Below are positions 4,976-19,514 of a stretch of 64,000 bases of DNA, piece after piece; position 1 is the first letter of the stretch, and each line of letters opens with the position of its first letter. The DNA is taken from NCBI RefSeq assembly GCF_004114375.1, contig NZ_CP034692.1, positions 2,232,001 to 2,296,000 of the forward strand. The letters are read 5' to 3'. Both the position numbers and the translations under genes were made by a program. This stretch comes from Halorubrum sp. BOL3-1. GTDB lineage: Archaea; Halobacteriota; Halobacteria; Halobacteriales; Haloferacaceae. The notes beneath the pieces were generated by a model. It was given only the letters and a program-made list of their open reading frames with translations, was not told where the DNA came from and did not search any database.

Positions 4976-6001
4976 ATGAAGCTGGTTCGCGTCGTCTTCG
5001 CCCTCCTCGTCGCCGTCGCGGTCGGTCTCGTTCTCTCCGGATTCTTTGCCGGGGCGGGCGAGGAGCCGGCCGTCGACGACGTCGCGGACGACCGCCCCAT
5101 CGCGGTCGACGGCGACTACCGGCTCTGGCCGTACACGAGCCGGAGCCGGAGCGTCGAGGGGCGGACGCTCGCGGTCAACGTGGTGTTCCACGCCGACGCC
5201 CAGACGACGCGGGCCGCGATCGAGGGCGATCCGGAGGCGAACTGGGAGGGAACGGAGCCGGGGGAGGCGGCGACGGCGGCGGACTCCGAGGACGCCGAGG
5301 CGTTCGTCGGCCGCGACTGGCGGGACGCCCACAGCTCGCTCCACTACTCGTACGTCGAGGGACCGACCGGCGGTACGTGGCTCACCGAGACGCTCGAACT
5401 CCACGACGGGGCGTACCTCTGGGTCCGCGACCACCTCCGCGCCTACGAGTCCCCGGACGGCGAGTACACCGCGATCCAGGCTCACGAGGAGTACTACGAC
5501 TGGTTCCGGCTCCGCCACACCGTGCCCGGCATCGACGCGCCCGCGCTCCGGCTCGAATCCGAGTTCGTCGAGTCGGACCGCGCGACCGACGTCCGCCGCG
5601 AGTACCGCGGCATCGACGGCGGGCGCAGCGACGGCTGGCTCTCCGTGATCGAGCCGGCGGCGACCGCGGCGCTCGTCGGGGCGGTGCTCCGCTGGCGGAC
5701 GCGCGAGGCGGCGACCGACCTCGTCCGTCGGCTCCGTACCGACGCGGGACGGCACGCCGCGGCGGCGACGCTGGGACTCGCGCCCGGCGCCGTCCCGGTC
5801 AGCGTTCGCGTCGCTGGCGTGACGCTGGAGACGGTGCTGCCGGCCGTGTCACCGAAGGCCATCGCGGCGCCGCTGTACCTCGTCCTCGCGGCGCTCGGCG
5901 TCGTCGCCATCGGTCGCGCAACCGCCGACCGGCCCGTCGCCGTCGTCGGGCTGGCCGCGTGGGCCGTCGGGCTAGCGCTCCCGCTGGCGGACGTGATCTG
6001 A
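4976..6001 (+). CDS. Membrane-anchored hypothetical protein with an extracytoplasmic domain
   Basis: 341 residues. Residues 3-27 form a hydrophobic N-terminal helix ('VVFALLVAVAVGLVLSGFFA'). A soluble acidic domain of about 220 residues follows, with aromatic motifs 'DYRLWPYTSRS' and 'HEEYYDWFRLRHTVPG'. At least two hydrophobic helices are at the C-terminus (about 285-341). The layout suggests a protein held at both ends in the membrane with the middle outside the cell. No catalytic motif was recognised. It lies about 90 nt before the lipoprotein gene at 6091, on the same strand, and could be co-expressed with it. Confidence 0.7.
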   Translation: MKLVRVVFALLVAVAVGLVLSGFFAGAGEEPAVDDVADDRPIAVDGDYRLWPYTSRSRSVEGRTLAVNVVFHADAQTTRAAIEGDPEANWEGTEPGEAATAADSEDAEAFVGRDWRDAHSSLHYSYVEGPTGGTWLTETLELHDGAYLWVRDHLRAYESPDGEYTAIQAHEEYYDWFRLRHTVPGIDAPALRLESEFVESDRATDVRREYRGIDGGRSDGWLSVIEPAATAALVGAVLRWRTREAATDLVRRLRTDAGRHAAAATLGLAPGAVPVSVRVAGVTLETVLPAVSPKAIAAPLYLVLAALGVVAIGRATADRPVAVVGLAAWAVGLALPLADVI

Positions 6002-6090: not shown

Positions 6091-7995
6091 ATGACACGAC
6101 CGATCGGTCGACGCGCGGCGCTCGCCGGACTCGGCTTCGCGGCCGCCAGCGCCGGCTGTCTCGGTCGAACGGAGAACATCGCGGGACGCGACCCCCACTC
6201 GCAGCTGACCCTGGAGATCAACACCACTCCGGCCGACGCCGACCCCAACGGGATCCGCATCGCGAGACAGCTCGAAGAGCACCTGACCGCGGTCGGCGTC
6301 GACGTCCGACTCAACACCGTCGGCCAGACCGACCTCTGGCGCAAGGTGCTCGTCAACCAGAACTTCGACATCTACGTCGGGCAGTTCGTGGAGACGGAGC
6401 CGTTCGACGCCGACGCGCTGTACGGCTTGACTCACTCGAAGTTCGTCGCGGAGTCCGGGTGGCAGAACCCCTCCGGTCTCACGGAGATCGCGGTCGACGA
6501 CCTGCTGGAGCGACAGCGCCGAACGTCCGGAGACGAACGGGCCGACGCCGTCGACGCGCTCCAGGAGACGGTGTGCGAACTCCAGCCCTTCTCCGTCGTC
6601 GCGTTCCCGGACGCGCTCACCGCCGTCCAGGAGAACCGGTTCGAGGGATGGACCGAGGACCGCCGGGCGGTCTCGGTCACCGGTCTCCTCGAACTCGACG
6701 GCGTCGCCTCCGACGGCGGCTCGGGGAATAGCGGATCGGAAGACGGCGGCTCCGGCGCCGACGGATCGACGGACGGCAACGCGACGACGACCGACGCGGG
6801 TGACGGGGACGGTGGTACCCTCCGGCTCGTGACGACCGACGACCGCATTACCGAGAACTGGAACCCGATCGCCGCGGAGTACCGGAAGTACGGCACGTTC
6901 ACCGGGCTGCTGTACGACCCGCTCGTCCGCCCGGACGGCGAGTCCGTCGTCCCGTGGCTGGCGGCCGGCTGGGAGCGGGTCGACGACGACGCCGTCGAGG
7001 TCTCGCTCCGCGACGCCCGGTGGCACGACGGCGAACCCGTGACGGCGACCGACGTCGCGTTCACCTACGAGTTCCTCCGGGACACGTCGCTGGGGAGCGT
7101 CGAGACGCCGGTGCCGACCCCGCGGTTCCGCGGCCGGAGCTCCCTCGTCGAAGGCGAGCGCGTTCTCGACGACGCGACGGTCCGCCTCACCGTGCCCGAC
7201 ATCAACCAAACGGTCGCGGCGCGGGCGCTTCAGGTGCCGATCCTCCCGAAACACGTCTGGTCGGACCGGACCGACGCGGCGACGATCGCCGGCTTCGAGT
7301 TCGACTTCGAGACGACGGAGGCGGTCGTCTCGAACAACGCCGACCCCGTCGGAAGCGGTCCGCTGCGCTTCGTCGAGGCGTCCACGGGGGAGTCGGTCGT
7401 CTTCGAACGGAACCCCGACCACTTCCTCGTCCGCCCGACCTCGGACAGCGATTCGACTGAGTCCGGCGAGACGACGGATCCGCGAGCCGGCATTCCGTCC
7501 CGATACCACGGGAAGCCCGCGTTCGACCGGCTCCGGATCGAGGTGTCACCGTCGGACATCCCGGCCGTCGAGTCGGTCGCAGAGGGACTTGCGGACGCGA
7601 CCGTCTCGAACCTCGGTCCGGCGTCCGTCCCGGAGATCGGCCGCTCGGACGATGTCAGACTCGTGAGCGGCCGGTCGGCGGCGTTCTACCACGTCGGGTA
7701 CAACGTGCGCCGAAGCCCGCTGTCGAACCCACGGTTCCGGGCGTTCATCGCGCGGCTGATCGACAAGGCCGCGCTCGTCGACGACGCCTTCGACGGGTAC
7801 GCGCGGGCGGCGACGTCCCCGCTCGCGGCGTCGCCGGACGCGGTCCCGGAGTCGGTCGCGTGGGCCGACGGGAGCGACCCGGTCAACCCGTTCTTCGACG
7901 ACGCGGGATCGCTCGATGTCGAGGCCGCTCGGGCGGCGCTTCGCGACGTCGGGTATCGCTTCGACGACCAGGATCGGCTGCTCTCGCGCACGTAA
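6091..7995 (+). CDS. Tat lipoprotein, family-5 solute-binding protein with permuted domain order
   Basis: 634 residues. The N-terminus 'TRPIGRRAALAGLGFAAASA' is a Tat signal, with lipobox AGC and Cys23 as the lipid anchor. Segment 37-205 resembles what is normally the C-terminal part of peptide-binding proteins ('LTLEINTTPADADPN', 'EEHLTAVGVDVRL', 'NFDIYVGQF'). A Gly/Ser/Asp linker follows (about 206-240). Then comes the normal N-terminal part ('GGTLRLVTTDD', 'DARWHDGEPVTATDVAFTYE', 'GSGPLRF') through 'DVEAARAALRDVGYRFDDQD', where it stops exactly where the missing C-part would begin. This is a circular permutation relative to the canonical protein at 17814. The stop codon overlaps the next gene's ATG. 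No permease lies beside it, so the partner transporter and ligand are unknown. Confidence 0.85.
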   Translation: MTRPIGRRAALAGLGFAAASAGCLGRTENIAGRDPHSQLTLEINTTPADADPNGIRIARQLEEHLTAVGVDVRLNTVGQTDLWRKVLVNQNFDIYVGQFVETEPFDADALYGLTHSKFVAESGWQNPSGLTEIAVDDLLERQRRTSGDERADAVDALQETVCELQPFSVVAFPDALTAVQENRFEGWTEDRRAVSVTGLLELDGVASDGGSGNSGSEDGGSGADGSTDGNATTTDAGDGDGGTLRLVTTDDRITENWNPIAAEYRKYGTFTGLLYDPLVRPDGESVVPWLAAGWERVDDDAVEVSLRDARWHDGEPVTATDVAFTYEFLRDTSLGSVETPVPTPRFRGRSSLVEGERVLDDATVRLTVPDINQTVAARALQVPILPKHVWSDRTDAATIAGFEFDFETTEAVVSNNADPVGSGPLRFVEASTGESVVFERNPDHFLVRPTSDSDSTESGETTDPRAGIPSRYHGKPAFDRLRIEVSPSDIPAVESVAEGLADATVSNLGPASVPEIGRSDDVRLVSGRSAAFYHVGYNVRRSPLSNPRFRAFIARLIDKAALVDDAFDGYARAATSPLAASPDAVPESVAWADGSDPVNPFFDDAGSLDVEAARAALRDVGYRFDDQDRLLSRT

Positions 7996-8876
7996 TGACG
8001 CCGTTCCTGTCGGTCCTCACGTCGGTCGTGGGGTGGGTCGGAGCGATGCTGGCGGTCGCGAGCGCGGCGGTGATTGGTCCCGCCCGGCTCCGTGAGGCAT
8101 CGAACGGCCTGCGCTCGCGGTTGTGGGACGCGCGCTGGGCCGGGGCGGTCCTGTGTGCGGTGTTGCTCGCCAGCGCGGTCGGTCGGAGTTCGCTTCAGGC
8201 GGTCTCGGAGCTGTTCGGGGTTCAAGGGACGGCGCTCATCTACAGGCTGGAGGGCGGGTTCGTCGCGTGGGTCCAGGCCACGTTCGCCACGGCGGAGCTG
8301 ACCGCGTACTTCTCGTGGGTGTACGTGTACGGCTACGCATTCCTGCTCGCGTTCCCGGTGGTCGCGTGCCTCGCGCTCCCCCGAACGGCGACGCTCAGGC
8401 GACTGCTCGTCGCGTACGCGATCAACTACGCAATCGGGTTAGCGCTGTACACGCTGGTGTTCGCGTACGGGCCGCGGAACGTGATGCCCGACATGGTGGC
8501 GCCGCTGCTCTTCGCCAACCAGCCGGACATCATGCTGCTGGCCGACGAGGTGAACGTGAACACGAACGTCTTCCCGTCGCTTCACACCTCGCTGGCGGTC
8601 ACCGTCGGGACGTTCGCGGTGTTGACCCGCGAGGAGTACCCGCGGTGGACACCGATCGGGGTCCCGCTCGCGCTGTCGGTCGTCATTGCGACCATGTACC
8701 TCGGGATCCACTGGCTCACGGACGTGGTCGCGGGGTTCGCGCTCGCGTTCGGCTCCGTTTCGCTCGCGTACCGCCTCGTGGACCCTCGCGACGCCGCCGA
8801 ACCGATCGATGCCGCCGAACCGAGCGGCGACGCGAACGAGGAGCCGCCCGGCTCTGGAACCGGCGCGCACGACTGA
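7995..8876 (+). CDS. PAP2-superfamily membrane phosphatase
   Basis: 293 residues with about six membrane helices. The PAP2 signature is partly visible: 'FPSLHTSLAVTVGTFA' (phosphatase motif 2, PSxHT) and 'GIHWLTDVVAGFALAFG' (motif 3, with its His and Asp). The C-terminal 30 residues are a hydrophilic acidic tail. It likely removes phosphate from a lipid phosphate, isoprenyl diphosphate or similar membrane-bound substrate on the outer face. Its ATG overlaps the stop of the binding-protein gene (TAATG), so the two are translationally coupled. That suggests a shared envelope role, but no specific link can be named. Confidence 0.85.
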   Translation: MTPFLSVLTSVVGWVGAMLAVASAAVIGPARLREASNGLRSRLWDARWAGAVLCAVLLASAVGRSSLQAVSELFGVQGTALIYRLEGGFVAWVQATFATAELTAYFSWVYVYGYAFLLAFPVVACLALPRTATLRRLLVAYAINYAIGLALYTLVFAYGPRNVMPDMVAPLLFANQPDIMLLADEVNVNTNVFPSLHTSLAVTVGTFAVLTREEYPRWTPIGVPLALSVVIATMYLGIHWLTDVVAGFALAFGSVSLAYRLVDPRDAAEPIDAAEPSGDANEEPPGSGTGAHD

Positions 8877-8900: not shown

Positions 8901-9482
8901 TCAGACCCCTTCGACGAGCCGTTCGAGCTGCTCCGGCGGGACCGCCCCGCGGGCGGCGTGGCCGTCGTACGCGAACGTCGGGACGCCGGTGACGCCCTGT
9001 CGCCTCGCGGCGTCGAACATGTCGGTCACGCGCTCGCGCAGGTCGTCGTCCGCAAGCGCCTCGTCGACGACGGCGGGATCGAGACCGTCGATCTCGGCCG
9101 CGACCTCGGCCAGCACGTCGCGGTCACCGATATCGCGCCCGTCGAGCCAGAGCGCGTCGAAGACGGCCTCGTCGAACGCGAGCCACGCGTCGGGGGCGGT
9201 CTCGCGCACGCGGACCGAGACGATCTGCGCGGGCAGCGAGTCGACGTCGGCCCGCAGTTCCTGTGCCATCTCGACGTCGTACTCCGCCTGGAGGCGGCGG
9301 ACGTTCTCCCTCGCCTGCTCGTAGTAGTCGTCGCCTTTCCCGTCGTCGGCGTCGTGGTCGATCTCGCCGTCCGGCCCGCGCTTGCCCGCGCGGAGGTCGA
9401 ACGGGTGCCAGTCGATCGCAAGCGGCTCCTCGCACGCCTCCTGATACCGCGCGAGCGACCGTCGCCCGAGGAAACAGAAGGG
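8901..9482 (-). pseudogene. Truncated frnE/DsbA-like gene lacking its N-terminus
   Basis: The frame encodes a FrnE-type thioredoxin-fold protein from 'FCFLGRRSLARYQEACEE' to 'RGAVPPEQLERLVEGV' with no internal stop, but it lacks a start codon and the first Cys of the CPFC active site. Homology ends at 9480-9482, where lower-GC DNA begins. The missing first 30 or so codons are present 3.8 kb away, at the head of the intact copy (13358-13262). Their GC-rich composition matches this remnant, not the body of that copy. This is therefore the displaced native 3' part of frnE. Confidence 0.85.
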
Positions 9483-9649
9483 TAGAGATCTACAATCAAG
9501 ATGTAATTGTTGCCGGAGTATTGAGCAACATCGAAAACCAACTTCAAATACTTGGCTCTGTGAGAGTCCTCTTCTTCAGACATATCTGTACCCGGCACGT
9601 AGTCTCTAATTATCGCTTCTTCCGGGGGTTTAAGATCCAAGATCGTCAC
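9480..9649 (-). pseudogene. Short reading frame cut at the left integration boundary
   Basis: From a GTG at 9649 the minus strand encodes about 57 residues ('TILDLKPPEEAIIRDYVPG' through 'SGNNYILIVDLYP') before running out of the element into host frnE sequence in the wrong frame. If the element is re-circularised, the frame would end about seven codons later at a TAA in the frnE-derived segment, giving about 65 residues. No family was recognised and it may not be expressed. Confidence 0.35.
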
Positions 9650-9825
9650 TGCTGATATGGAGTTAGGTAGGCTCCATGGGTTTCTGGTTGAATCCGGGGT
9701 AGTGTCCCGGGCACATTTTCAGTATAGTTCAGGTTCATCTCACAACGATTCTCCAAGGTTGTGGGGAAAACCACAGCAGCGTTAACAGTATCTCGTAGCA
9801 CGTCGCTTATCAGCATCAGAAGACA

Positions 9826-9864
9826 AGCCAGTGACTGCGGAGTATCTTGTTGTAGTCACTGGCT
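9826..9864. repeat. Perfect 11-bp palindrome upstream of rep
   Basis: AGCCAGTGACT (9826-9836) and AGTCACTGGCT (9854-9864) are exact reverse complements with a 17-nt spacer. It lies in the 278-nt gene-free leader before the Rep gene. This is where rolling-circle replicons often carry a double-strand origin or Rep-binding site, so an origin is a reasonable guess. No known nick motif was identified. Confidence 0.45.
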
Positions 9865-9927
9865 GTACGTATCGTCCAGGTCACGGTTTAAATTCAACCG
9901 CACCATGCGGGATGGGTAGACTCATAG

Positions 9928-11232
9928 ATGATTCGCGCCTCCGACAATGACTCCGTAGATAATCCTTACACAGATGAAGACCCCAGACCTTGGAGCGAAG
10001 ATCCCCGGGCCGAAGACAAGGATCGACTCGCGAAATTCGTCGTACTTGCGGGTGGGGTTACAACAGCGGGTGCAGCTGCTGAAGCTCTCTCTCATACTCA
10101 GCAGGATTTTGAAACTGAGCAGGACTTTGTAAATAGATTCTTTAACGACAACAAGGGTATTGTAGCGGTTGTAAAGTCCATACAAGCGAACGATCGGTTG
10201 TATGCTCACCCGACTCCGCTCCTGGTTCATTTAGTACTCAACGAGATCGGCATTTCTGGGGATGAGTTCAGTCGAATATACCATCCTAAGGGTGATGTAC
10301 GCGACGAATCATTCCTGTTTGAATGGGTCCCGCCGAGAAGTATTCGGGCACCTCCGCGCGTACTTGACGTCGGTAAGGGAATTTCCGAACTCCGGGATAC
10401 GGAGTGGTTCAGAGCCAGATACCCCGAAAAAGAATTTTATGATGAGTGTCGTGATTGGGTCCGTCCCAAAGACGAACTGAAGAGAATGGCGGGAAAGGTT
10501 CTCGAAATTGAGTCTGATTCGGTTCGCAAGGGGTACGCTAGGATGTTGGACAAAGACATTGAGTGGAAAAAGAAGCAGATGAACGATGGAGATGGTCAAT
10601 TTAGAAGTAAGTATACTGATGCGCGACAGGCTGGTAAGCCATACGCGAAAATCAGTGAGGGGATTGAAAATGCAACACGGCTCGGGTTTCGAGTGGGTAC
10701 TGTAGTGACTCTGACTACGGCACCAAAACACTTCAGTTCGTTTGTCGATGCGTTTCAGAATCTGCGTTCCTCGCATCAGAAATTGATCGACAGTATGAGG
10801 AGGAAACCGATGTTTGACGGCGCACCAGACCGTGTTGGGGTACTACAGCTCACGGACTCTGGCTTGCCGCACTTACATATCTTCTTTCCGGGTATTTCAC
10901 CCACAGACTTTCCTGGTGACTGGGTAGAGAACTATTGGGCCTCTACGGTAGAACAGGGCGACCAAGTTGAGATTCAGCGGGCATGGTGGTGTCCTGACCG
11001 GGGACCTCGCGATGAGGCTGGTACGTGGGTTTTCGGTGAGAATAAGACTCCGATTCGCGAGTACTTCATGGAGGTACCGCGATTGCTTTTGGATGTTGGA
11101 CAGGACAATGAGAGCGTTTTGACTGCCACAAGAAGAGGAGGTGATCATTGGAAGCTATCTCTGTTGTGGGTCGTTGAAACGCAGATCCATTTCCTATCAC
11201 AGTCTCAGTACTTCACAAAGCCGCTTAGTTAG
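9928..11232 (+). CDS. HUH-type plasmid replication initiator, 3' end interrupted by an IS
   Basis: As it stands, 434 residues are encoded. The motif order fits haloarchaeal plasmid/pleolipovirus Rep proteins: 'VGTVVTLTTAPKHFSSFVDA', then the HUH-like 'GLPHLHIFFPG' (about residue 312), then a Tyr-containing segment 'REYFMEVPRLLL' (about 378) and 'WKLSLLWVVETQIHFLSQS'. The Tyr lacks the usual downstream Lys, so nicking activity is uncertain. The last nine or so residues come from an ISH3-type insertion after codon TCT (11203-11205). Joining across the element restores about 19 further codons to a TAA at 12667-12669. GC is well below the chromosome's. Probable role: rolling-circle initiation for the integrated replicon. 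Confidence 0.65.
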   Translation: MIRASDNDSVDNPYTDEDPRPWSEDPRAEDKDRLAKFVVLAGGVTTAGAAAEALSHTQQDFETEQDFVNRFFNDNKGIVAVVKSIQANDRLYAHPTPLLVHLVLNEIGISGDEFSRIYHPKGDVRDESFLFEWVPPRSIRAPPRVLDVGKGISELRDTEWFRARYPEKEFYDECRDWVRPKDELKRMAGKVLEIESDSVRKGYARMLDKDIEWKKKQMNDGDGQFRSKYTDARQAGKPYAKISEGIENATRLGFRVGTVVTLTTAPKHFSSFVDAFQNLRSSHQKLIDSMRRKPMFDGAPDRVGVLQLTDSGLPHLHIFFPGISPTDFPGDWVENYWASTVEQGDQVEIQRAWWCPDRGPRDEAGTWVFGENKTPIREYFMEVPRLLLDVGQDNESVLTATRRGGDHWKLSLLWVVETQIHFLSQSQYFTKPLS

Positions 11233-12604
11233 AACGTCTGCTTGCTGAAGGTGTGTCTACGACCAAGCAAGCAGACGGTGAGATCCACGAGGACCAGCTT
11301 CTTAACTTTCTCGTCAACCGCCTTGACGAGGAAGTTCCGCTCTCCTTAGCCAATAACGCTGAGATCACTGCTGAAGACATCTATGAGGTCCTCGTCGGCG
11401 CTTGCGCCGACGGGACCTCTGTCTCTACGCTCTGCGCGTCGAGCCAGAACTCACCCGCTGCAAACACGGTCCTCTACCATCTCCGGACGAAGTTCGAGCC
11501 CAATCGGCTCGAACGAGTCGCTAACACGCTCCTGCGGAAGAACCTTGATGAACTGCTCCCCGAGCAGGTGGAGGTCTGCGCAGACCTCCACCTGCGGCCC
11601 TACTACGGTGACGAAGACGATACAGACGACCTCTATCACTCGGTAGCGAAGCGTGGAACCACTGCGTTCTATGCCTACGCCACACTCTACGCGCGTGTGA
11701 AAAACAAACGCTACACGCTGGCGGTACGCCGTCTCAAAGACGGCGATACCGCCAGCAGTGTCCTCGCTGAGTTCTTCGGTGTCCTCGACGGCCTTGACAC
11801 CGGGGTCAAGGCCGTCTACCTTGATCGCGGATTCTACGACAGCAAGTGTCTCACGCTGCTTCAGGCGCACAATTACGCGTACGTGATCCCGATCATCCGG
11901 TGGGGTGAGACGATTCAGCAGGAGCTCTCGGAAGGATGGAGCCGCGTCATTCAGCACAATCTGACAGGGAAGCTCGACGGTCACAGCTGGACCGTCGAGT
12001 TTCCCGTCTACATCGACTGTACGTACCTAAACGGGAAGTATGACGAGAACGGGGTGGCGCGTCACGGCTACGCCGCTGACGCGCCGTTCATCGACTCACC
12101 ACGCGACGCTCGATACCACTACAGCAAGCGGTTTGGTATCGAGTCGAGCTATCGCTTGTTTGAGCAAGCGATAGCGACGACAACGACACGAGATCCAACG
12201 GTACGGCTGCTGTACGTCGTGGTGAGTCTCCTCTTACAGAACGTCTGGCGGTACCTTCACTACGAGTATGTGGCGACGCCCCGCCAAGGCGGGCGTCGCC
12301 TCTGGTGGTGGCCGTACAAGGAGTTCATCAATATGGTTCGACGAGCTGCGTGGACGGCCCTCGCGGTGCGTCGGGCCGTCCCCGCGAATAGGCCACCTGA
12401 CGACCGATTCTACCGCTAACCACCGACCGAGCAAGCCAGTAGAGTAAGTGGCAACGCTGTCGCGTCGGCGGCTGATCGCCGCCGACAGCGACAGCTCTCC
12501 GTCGATCCGTCCGTAATCCTCTCATCGAGATCCTCAGCACAACCGCTTCGACACAGAAATCAGACCGCAGAAACAGCTAACCGAGGATGCTTTGTGAGGT
12601 ACTG
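11206..12604 (+). mobile_element. ISH3-family insertion sequence
   Basis: About 1.4 kb bounded by imperfect terminal inverted repeats: left CAGTACTTCACAAAGC from 11206, right end (reverse complement) CAGTACCTCACAAAGC from 12604. Similarity continues inward for about 10 more bases. It encodes one full-length transposase. The flanking pentamers AGTCT (11201-11205) and AATCT (12605-12609) fit the 5-bp target duplication expected of this family, with one mismatch. It has landed in the 3' end of rep. Confidence 0.8.
11253..12419 (+). CDS. ISH3-family transposase
   Basis: 388 residues, the size I associate with ISH3-family enzymes. A DDE-type layout is visible: 'VCADLHLRPYYGD' (first Asp), 'KAVYLDRGFYDSKC' (second Asp), and 'KRFGIESSYRLFEQA' (Glu within the Y-(2)-R-type motif). 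The start is a GTG 47 bp inside the left end. No frameshift or stop interrupts it, so the element may be active. It catalyses cut-and-paste movement of its own element. Confidence 0.85.
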   Translation: MSTTKQADGEIHEDQLLNFLVNRLDEEVPLSLANNAEITAEDIYEVLVGACADGTSVSTLCASSQNSPAANTVLYHLRTKFEPNRLERVANTLLRKNLDELLPEQVEVCADLHLRPYYGDEDDTDDLYHSVAKRGTTAFYAYATLYARVKNKRYTLAVRRLKDGDTASSVLAEFFGVLDGLDTGVKAVYLDRGFYDSKCLTLLQAHNYAYVIPIIRWGETIQQELSEGWSRVIQHNLTGKLDGHSWTVEFPVYIDCTYLNGKYDENGVARHGYAADAPFIDSPRDARYHYSKRFGIESSYRLFEQAIATTTTRDPTVRLLYVVVSLLLQNVWRYLHYEYVATPRQGGRRLWWWPYKEFINMVRRAAWTALAVRRAVPANRPPDDRFYR

Positions 12605-12695
12605 AATCTCGGTTCGTACCACATTCGCGCTCTGTGTTGAGTATGACCACTAAATCTCCCCTCCAATAAGAGATTCCACTAAGATCGCCTGAAAA

Positions 12696-13358
12696 TTATT
12701 GGCCTTCAACCAGTCTTTGGAGGTGTTCCGGCGGTACTGCCCCACGAGCTGCTTGGCCATCGTAAACGAAGGTTGGAACGCCTGTGATCCCTATCTGACT
12801 CGCTTCCTGATGTACAGATTCGAGGTGGGTTTCCCATTCTTCATCTTCCAGAGCATCACGGATCTCCTCTGGGTGAAGGCCTATGTCACTCGCGAGATCG
12901 GCAAGCACGTCAGGGCTTCCGATGTCACGTGCGTCTGTCCAGAGTGCCTCAAAGATTGCATCGTCGAACGCTTCCCACTTTTCTGGATGCTCCTCTCGCA
13001 CGTATAGAGAGGCCTGCTGGGCGTCCCACGAGTCAACATCTCGGCGGATCTCTTGGGCCATCTCAACGTCATATTTTTCCTGGAGGCGGCGGACGTTCTC
13101 GCGGGCCTGGCTGTAATAATCCTCGTCCTTGCCGTCGTCAATGTCGGTGTTGATGCTTCCGTCAGGTTGCCGCTTTCCTGACCGGAGGTCAAATGGATGC
13201 CACTCAACATTGAGCGGTTTTTTGCGTTGATCTCGATACTGTGCCATTACACTTCTGCCCAGGAAGCAGAACGGACAGACGTAGTCGGAGTAGACGGTGA
13301 TCGCCTCGGGTTCGTCGGCGTCACCGCTCGCGCCGGCGGCGTTCGGATCGGTTGTCAT
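12696..13358 (-). CDS. frnE: FrnE/DsbA-family oxidoreductase, chimeric by integration
   Basis: 220 residues. Thioredoxin-fold protein with active site CPFC near residues 33-36 ('YSDYVCPFCFLGRSVMAQY'), the helical insertion of the 2-hydroxychromene/FrnE group, and the cis-Pro loop 'ITGVPTFVYDGQAARG'. The first 30 or so codons are GC-rich like the chromosome. The remainder is lower GC and matches a different homolog than the displaced 3' part at 8901-9482. The gene is therefore a fusion of the host 5' end with an incoming 3' segment, joined at the CxxC codons. Likely role: disulfide exchange or redox stress defence; the substrate is unknown. Confidence 0.9.
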   Translation of the reverse strand: MTTDPNAAGASGDADEPEAITVYSDYVCPFCFLGRSVMAQYRDQRKKPLNVEWHPFDLRSGKRQPDGSINTDIDDGKDEDYYSQARENVRRLQEKYDVEMAQEIRRDVDSWDAQQASLYVREEHPEKWEAFDDAIFEALWTDARDIGSPDVLADLASDIGLHPEEIRDALEDEEWETHLESVHQEASQIGITGVPTFVYDGQAARGAVPPEHLQRLVEGQ

Positions 13359-17789: not shown

Positions 17790-17813
17790 GGGTTGCCGAT
17801 AGTATTTATATGT

Positions 17814-19514
17814 ATGTCTCCTGATACCACAGGAACGACACGACGTAGTTTCCTCCAACGAGCCGGCGGAGCGACCGTTGCGACGGCGTCTGCCGTCTCC
17901 CTCGCCGGGTGCGGCGGTGACGGCGGTGACGGCGGCGACGGCGGTGACGGCGGCGACGGTGGCGACGGTGGCGACGGCGGCGACGGCGGCGACACCACCA
18001 CCCTTCGGTACGGCCGCGGCGCCCACTCCAGTACCCTTGACCCGCAGAACACGACCAGCGGTGAGGTCGCGAAGGTCACCAACCAGGCGTACGAGGGGCT
18101 GATCAGCTTCCAGCCGGGCGAGGCGTCGCTCACGGAATCGCTCGCCACCGACTGGTCGCTTGACGGAGACTCGGTGACGCTCACGCTCCGCGAGGGCGTG
18201 AGCTTCCACGACGGGTCGGAGTTCACCGCCGACGACTTCATCGCCACGTATCGGCGGTTCGTCGACGACGACTACGACTACCACTTCGAGGACTCATCGG
18301 TGTACGGTCCGTTCACGCTTGGCAACTGGATCGACACCGTCGAGGCACCGAGCGACTACGAGCTCTCGATCACCCTGACACAGACGTACGCGCCGTTCCT
18401 CCGCAACCTCGCGATGTTCGCGGCCGTCGTCATCTCCCGAGAGGCGATCGAGAGCGACACCAATCTCGACGAGGAGATGGTCGGCACCGGACCGTTCCAG
18501 CTGGAGACGCTCGACAACGCCAACAACCGCATCCAGCTCTCCGTGTTCGACGACTACTGGGGCGAGAGCCCGAACGTCGACGAGGTCCTGTTCCTCACCC
18601 GCGGGCAGAACTCCACTCGCGCGCAGTCGCTCGTCGAGGAGGAACTCGACATTATCGACGGACTCGACCCCGACAGCATGCAGATCATCGAGGGGTCCGA
18701 CACCGCGGAGAACCGGACGGCGACGGGGATCAACATCGGGTACATGGCGTTCAACCTCTCGCGCGTTGAGGCGTTCCACGACCGCCGGGTCCGCCGCGCG
18801 ATCAGCTACGCTATCGACACCCAGGCGATCGTCGAGAACATCTACTCGGGGATCGCCACGCAGGCCGACCAGCCAATCCCGCCCGCGCTGTTCGGCCACA
18901 ACGACGACGTCAGCCCCTACGAGTACGACCTCGAACAGGCCCAGAGCCTGCTCGACGAGGCGGGCTACGGCGACGGCTTCTCGTTCACGCTGACCACGTT
19001 CCAGAACCCCCGCGGGTACAACCCGGCGCCGCTGCCGACCGCGGAGACGATCCGGTCGAACCTCTCCGAGGTCGGGATCGAGGTGTCGATCGACGACCGG
19101 CAGTTCTCCGACTACCTCACGTACACCAGCCAGGGGAACCACGACGCGACGCTCGCCGGCTGGTACACGGACAACGCCGACCCCGACAACTTCTGTTACG
19201 TGCTCCTCCACCCGCAGGTAGAGGTGCCGGAGGGGCAGGACTGGGTCGACTGGGACACGGAGGGCTTCAACACCTCGAACAACGCCGCGTGGGCCAACAG
19301 CGAGTACATGAGCGTCGTCGAAGAGGCCCAGCAGACCACGAACCAGGAGAACCGCGCCGAGCTGTACCGCGAGGCTGCGCAGATAGCCCACGACGAGGCG
19401 CCGTGGGTGTTCATCGATTACGCCGACGAGGTCCGCGGCGTGTCCAACAGCGTGGGCAACTACACCGTCGCCGCGATCGGCGGGCCGTACCTCGAAGTCG
19501 TCGAAATCGAGTGA
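17814..19514 (+). CDS. Tat lipoprotein, peptide-type (family 5) solute-binding protein
   Basis: 566 residues with a Tat motif ('TTRRSFLQRAGGATVAT') and lipobox LAGC. A run of Gly-Gly-Asp repeats (nine-base units, about 17913-17990) spaces the domain from the lipid anchor. The canonical order follows: 'LDPQNTTSGE', 'LREGVSFHDGSEFTADDF', 'VGTGPFQLETL', 'HDRRVRRAISYAIDT', 'LLDEAGYGDGFSFTLTTF', 'HDEAPWVFIDYADEV'. It captures the substrate (peptides or related solutes) outside the cell for the permeases that follow. It is a useful local reference for the permuted homolog at 6091. Confidence 0.93.
   Translation: MSPDTTGTTRRSFLQRAGGATVATASAVSLAGCGGDGGDGGDGGDGGDGGDGGDGGDGGDTTTLRYGRGAHSSTLDPQNTTSGEVAKVTNQAYEGLISFQPGEASLTESLATDWSLDGDSVTLTLREGVSFHDGSEFTADDFIATYRRFVDDDYDYHFEDSSVYGPFTLGNWIDTVEAPSDYELSITLTQTYAPFLRNLAMFAAVVISREAIESDTNLDEEMVGTGPFQLETLDNANNRIQLSVFDDYWGESPNVDEVLFLTRGQNSTRAQSLVEEELDIIDGLDPDSMQIIEGSDTAENRTATGINIGYMAFNLSRVEAFHDRRVRRAISYAIDTQAIVENIYSGIATQADQPIPPALFGHNDDVSPYEYDLEQAQSLLDEAGYGDGFSFTLTTFQNPRGYNPAPLPTAETIRSNLSEVGIEVSIDDRQFSDYLTYTSQGNHDATLAGWYTDNADPDNFCYVLLHPQVEVPEGQDWVDWDTEGFNTSNNAAWANSEYMSVVEEAQQTTNQENRAELYREAAQIAHDEAPWVFIDYADEVRGVSNSVGNYTVAAIGGPYLEVVEIE

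Follow-up and report, generated by a model that had tools for sequence, protein, structure and literature searches.

One gene of the 64,000-nucleotide window analysed here, a stretch of the Halorubrum sp. BOL3-1 genome, encodes a family-5 solute-binding lipoprotein (SBP) whose chain is circularly permuted, and the stop codon of this gene overlaps the start codon of a gene for a predicted PAP2-superfamily membrane enzyme (Table 1). The reading we favour, at a probability of roughly 0.55, is that the permuted SBP comes from an ABC-importer lineage and now acts, coupled to the PAP2 protein, as an outer-face partner in envelope lipid or glycan chemistry. What makes the pair worth attention is that it is an all-or-none feature of about two thirds of the sampled haloarchaeal genomes, and that its permuted member belongs to a large and ancient permuted branch of family 5, spread over haloarchaea and Alphaproteobacteria and hidden under the name 'ABC transporter substrate-binding protein'.

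Table 1. Features of the SBP-PAP2 locus and the comparator gene (positions in the window).
Feature	Position	Strand	Details
Uncharacterised protein, apparent membrane segments, LWPYTSRSRS motif	4976..6001	+	just upstream of the SBP gene
Circularly permuted family-5 solute-binding lipoprotein	6091..7995	+	634 aa; ATG 6091, TAA 7993-7995
Tat signal with lipobox	6091..6159	+	residues 1-23; RR 7-8; G22 and C23 invariant
Counterpart of canonical C-terminal third	6199..6702	+	residues ~37-204; Pfam and HHalign
Gly/Ser/Asp/Thr-rich variable linker, old C- to old N-terminus	6703..6813	+	residues ~205-241; low model confidence
Counterpart of canonical N-terminal two thirds	6814..7974	+	residues ~242-628; ends at old internal AGY loop
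TAATG stop/start overlap of SBP and PAP2 genes	7993..7997	+	
Predicted PAP2-superfamily membrane lipid phosphatase/phosphotransferase	7995..8876	+	293 aa; Pfam PAP2_3/PAP2
Canonical-order family-5 SBP, comparator in a Dpp-type operon outside the SBP-PAP2 system	start about 17793-17814, end 19514	+	Pfam 4-364 continuous

By profile, the protein is a member of its family, scoring 156.3 bits against SBP_bac_5 of Pfam (cut-off 32.4) in two stretches, and these do not follow the canonical N-to-C order. Namely, in a Pfam model search of the whole genome, positions 287-363 of the PF00496 profile match the window at 6196-6438 (21.8 bits), and positions 2-284 match downstream of them, at 6946-7974 (137 bits). 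HHalign places the first (C) segment on canonical columns 413-570 (E 1e-7) and the second (NM) segment on columns 87-410 (E 2e-36). With a canonical haloarchaeal protein (L207) as the subject, BLASTP aligns query residues 221-623 with subject residues 52-401 (4e-25) and query residues 53-185 with subject residues 426-553 (4e-8). Against a permuted bacterial protein (L216), BLASTP gives a single colinear match, 21-579 on 29-510. The original prediction, made from the letters of the window, had placed the C-terminal third before the N-terminal two thirds, and this order is borne out by Pfam, HHalign and BLASTP. The features it had described around that order are also found: the lipobox SAGC follows the twin-arginine motif, its glycine and cysteine being invariant in 61 homologs; the Gly/Ser linker, in fact rich in Asp and Thr as well, varies among homologs between a few residues and about 70; and the protein proposed as an unpermuted comparator matches its Pfam profile in one piece. 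The family-5 motifs WHDGE and PxGSGP are kept in the permuted SBP, whose new chain ends fall within the loop that follows the AGY helix.

Could such an order be the product of an assembly rearrangement, or of a non-functional fusion of gene fragments? Nothing more than the odd order of the segments speaks for this explanation, which is refuted by the homologs and which we consider extremely improbable. A homolog of the permuted SBP is present in 263 of 391 sampled Halobacteria genomes (E <= 1e-30). Two overlapping samples, which include some near-duplicates, yielded 130 copies, 127 of which have a plausible length; thinning at 72% identity left 67. In all relatives with both parts located (34-90% identity), the C part stands ahead of the N part, and since this order is common to them all it is no artefact. 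The same order recurs in all independently assembled genomes examined, so that assembly rearrangement was rejected as its cause; with a canonical relative at hand for comparison, the permutation is genuine and conserved. What is more, an AlphaFold2 model calculated with 61 homologs is a single compact fold of high confidence (pLDDT 88.2, pTM 0.85), poorly defined in just two places, the signal region and the linker. Judging from this model, whose lobe geometry is a predicted one, the swapped chain would still be able to form a single binding protein, because the flexible linker joins the old termini and the new ends fall in the post-AGY loop. The top Foldseek matches of the model are NikZ, AppA and TM1223, along with agrocinopine- and chitin-binding proteins (cluster C); these are partial matches of about 270-450 alignment columns at TM near 0.3-0.5, values to be expected when a sequential aligner is applied to a permuted chain. 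No solved permuted family-5 chain appears among the PDB matches listed, every listed chain having aligned in canonical parts. In other words, the protein resembles the SBP_bac_5/cluster C proteins (DppA, OppA, NikA) in its Pfam match, its motifs and its closest folds, but differs from them in having the C-terminal third first, in its chain ends and in belonging to a clade with PAP2 in place of a permease.

The permuted SBP gene is, as a rule, coupled to a PAP2 gene. A PAP2 gene lies directly downstream of the SBP gene in 123 of the 127 copies (in the remaining 4 it is not adjacent), so that the segment order and the neighbour noted in the window are both found class-wide; the spacing is -4 in 73 copies and -1 in 27, and the overlap of stop and start first noted in the window is present in 102 copies in all. 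Searching the same 391 genomes for the PAP2 protein gave 263 strong matches, in exactly the genomes with the SBP, a further 23 matches (E 1e-10 to 1e-18) being weak paralogs. Both genes are thus present in 263 genomes and both absent from 128, a co-occurrence for which the Fisher test ignores relatedness. At least nine genera contain genomes with both genes as well as genomes with neither, tandem SBP-PAP2-SBP-PAP2 duplications occur in Natrialbaceae, and no canonical-order ortholog adjoining PAP2 was seen. On a plasmid of Salinigranum rubrum (L226:12595-13708), the permuted SBP is annotated in two pieces and the PAP2 gene as one. The all-or-none co-occurrence and the start/stop overlap point to the PAP2 protein as the partner of the permuted SBP, and an ancient link between the two is supported. 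Moreover, the fact that the swapped SBP is always found with PAP2 in the sampled genomes suggests that a part of a transporter has been put to another use on the cell surface. As for the partner itself, the catalytic residues H197, H239, D243 and R161 are invariant in 60 sequences, with the motifs F-P-S-L-H197 and G-P-R161-N. The nearest solved folds to its model (pLDDT 92.5) are those of Aur1-Kei1 and IPC synthase (9ivc, 9vj4; E about 1e-4), which rank ahead of LpxE and PgpB at a similarity that is moderate (TM about 0.5).

Would our reading be different if the protein still served a transporter? No permease is encoded beside the permuted SBP in the window, as had been claimed from the start, and none lies within reach at the other loci of the PAP2-linked clade, whereas other permuted clades do have an Opp/Dpp permease encoded alongside. 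That said, a binding protein is able to serve a distant permease, and therefore a missing neighbour is no proof of a non-transport role. The main rival to our reading is precisely this, namely that the SBP is an orphan importer receptor that feeds a remote Dpp/Opp permease, the PAP2 gene being co-transcribed for an indirect reason, e.g. because its product processes a phosphorylated nutrient lipid. Such a role would agree with the retention of the fold and of the residues conserved in family 5, with the service of permuted relatives to ABC importers, and with the presence of several Dpp operons in the Halorubrum sp. BOL3-1 genome. However, these operons have SBPs of their own, the nearest of them, about 10 kb to either side, each with a canonical one, and neither the permease-free loci of the clade nor the all-or-none, overlapping association with PAP2 would be expected of a receptor of this kind, which we therefore judge rather unlikely.

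The permutation itself extends beyond the pairing with PAP2. In the same genome, another permuted SBP (G000:C3:791607-793298; L139:6108-7802) heads a complete Dpp operon of an SBP, two permeases and two ATPases, and permuted SBPs accompany importer genes in many haloarchaea. Alphaproteobacterial plasmids also encode permuted SBPs (L215, L216, L217, L219 and L220), four of them with annotated ABC importer genes, in Ketogulonicigenium, Nitratireductor, Maritalea and Roseomonas; in Microvirga the permuted order is confirmed at a locus that has no annotation, and Neorhizobium gives colinear matches to the permuted SBP. Some of the alphaproteobacterial genes adjoin M28/M20 peptidase and hydantoinase/oxoprolinase genes. 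An invention of the permutation by haloarchaea only is ruled out by these bacterial relatives. In tying the permutation to the PAP2 partner and to the loss of a permease, the original prediction went too far, given that permuted relatives head complete Dpp/Opp operons both here and in other genomes, and its further suggestion that the lipid anchor had been moved to the other lobe is not needed. Namely, binding proteins of this kind are usually soluble in the periplasm of Gram-negative Alphaproteobacteria, and since permuted relatives occur with ABC importers, there as elsewhere, the permutation accounts neither for the loss of the permease nor for the anchor.

In the tree, the PAP2-linked SBPs form one clade (support 100/100). 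A well-marked split (99/92) divides most permuted proteins, the main set, from the canonical ones, but L180/L181 and L185 group with the latter. Their placement is a hint that permutation happened more than once, although separate origins are not required by the starred branches. The last of these (L185, G549:C2:98909-110357) is a permuted SBP with a Dpp operon, possibly permuted independently, from a non-haloarchaeal genome of the phylum, and it has a PGF-CTERM-like C-terminal anchor. In the negative controls, a Sphaerobacter genome (28 matches) and the sampled methanogen relatives, there was no full-length colinear match except in G549. The permutation may have arisen by duplication and trimming.

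The genes around the pair suggest envelope chemistry, without being universal. An uncharacterised protein of the type encoded just upstream in the window, which has no Pfam match, occurs within about 4 kb of the pair in about 30 of 64 loci and is a possible third member of the system. A PMT_2-like glycosyltransferase lies within about 4 kb in 27 of the 64, an arylsulfotransferase-like gene being present as well in 25 of these 27, and several plasmid copies are found near genes of amino-sugar or polysaccharide synthesis (glmM, GT2, flippase, aminotransferase). One could thus imagine that the PAP2 enzyme dephosphorylates or recycles a polyprenyl carrier such as dolichyl phosphate while the SBP binds the glycan, with the arylsulfotransferase-like, PMT-like and upstream proteins in the same pathway, and both the recurrence of these genes and the surroundings of the plasmid copies fit this picture. 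However, 23 of the 64 loci have none of the three genes within about 4 kb, glycan-type neighbours are missing within reach at many loci, and in the window, too, sugar genes are not beside the pair; with the PAP2 model being closer to phosphotransferases than to carrier phosphatases, recycling seems to us an improbable account. Further downstream, the window contains a region of low G+C content (8901-13358; 53% at 10-12 kb); it includes a transposase-like ORF (11253-12419) and is flanked by related DsbA/FrnE-like genes at 8901-9269, apparently truncated or frame-broken, and 12696-13358.

Returning to the reading of an outer-face partner in envelope chemistry, the most likely birthplace of the permutation is a lineage of ABC importers. 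One permuted clade would then have lost its permease and become coupled, at the level of translation, to a PAP2 enzyme that resembles Aur1/IPC synthase. PAP2 lipid enzymes usually have their active site on the outer face of the membrane, and the anchored SBP would sit on this face, beside that site. There it may bind the head group, the phosphorylated product or the glycan handled by the enzyme, and either present this ligand to the enzyme or gate it, in lipid- or polyprenol-linked envelope chemistry instead of uptake. Counting against this reading are the four copies with no PAP2 gene adjoining, the many loci, that of the window among them, with no glycan-type neighbour in reach, and the moderate degree of likeness to Aur1. 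An envelope function of the pair is likely, if putative, and the SBP is most likely the extracellular partner of a putative envelope lipid phosphotransferase or phosphatase. In a stronger and more tentative form, which we would not yet back over its negation, the permuted SBP has left transport altogether and serves solely as the extracellular subunit of a PAP2 lipid phosphotransferase of the Aur1 type, the two making up a novel envelope enzyme of most haloarchaea. The comparison with Aur1/IPC synthase has, of course, two sides. The PAP2 protein shares with it the PAP2_3 Pfam match and the nearest solved folds, and in yeast, too, the enzyme is accompanied by an accessory subunit, Kei1, but here the membrane is archaeal, no sphingolipids are expected, and the partner is an SBP. 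Phosphoryl transfer of head groups between lipids is a trait of Aur1/IPC synthase, to which the present PAP2 protein is likened by predicted fold only (TM about 0.5).

Circular permutation is rare in binding proteins, and the one natural case found in the literature, TpMglB-2 (Tp0684) of 'Type Ic/Cluster Bc', belongs to another cluster (PMC4990184). TpMglB-2 is a solute-binding lipoprotein of two lobes, its topology is shared by relatives, and it has been described as the receptor of an ABC transporter for sugar (PMC4990184). Unlike the family-5 protein described here, it is of the cluster B sugar-binding family, smaller and broken at another point (PMC4990184). A literature search, to which subscription papers were mostly out of reach, found no earlier report of a permuted family-5 SBP or of an SBP-PAP2 pair. 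With the PAP2-linked clade, for which a new function is possible, the idea that a receptor of transport has been drawn into the chemistry of membrane lipids or glycans can be put to the test.

Finally, a different type of circular permutation was seen in another family-5 SBP (L211:860-2503; G026:C1:1900859-1902502), in which the last ~50 canonical residues follow the N-terminal signal. To its canonical counterpart (L208) it shows 58-61% identity in each of the two pieces. Three genomes (G042, G013 and G043) have relatives that are colinear with it over the full length, and other genomes match it minus the N-terminal piece; this permutation is apparently recent.
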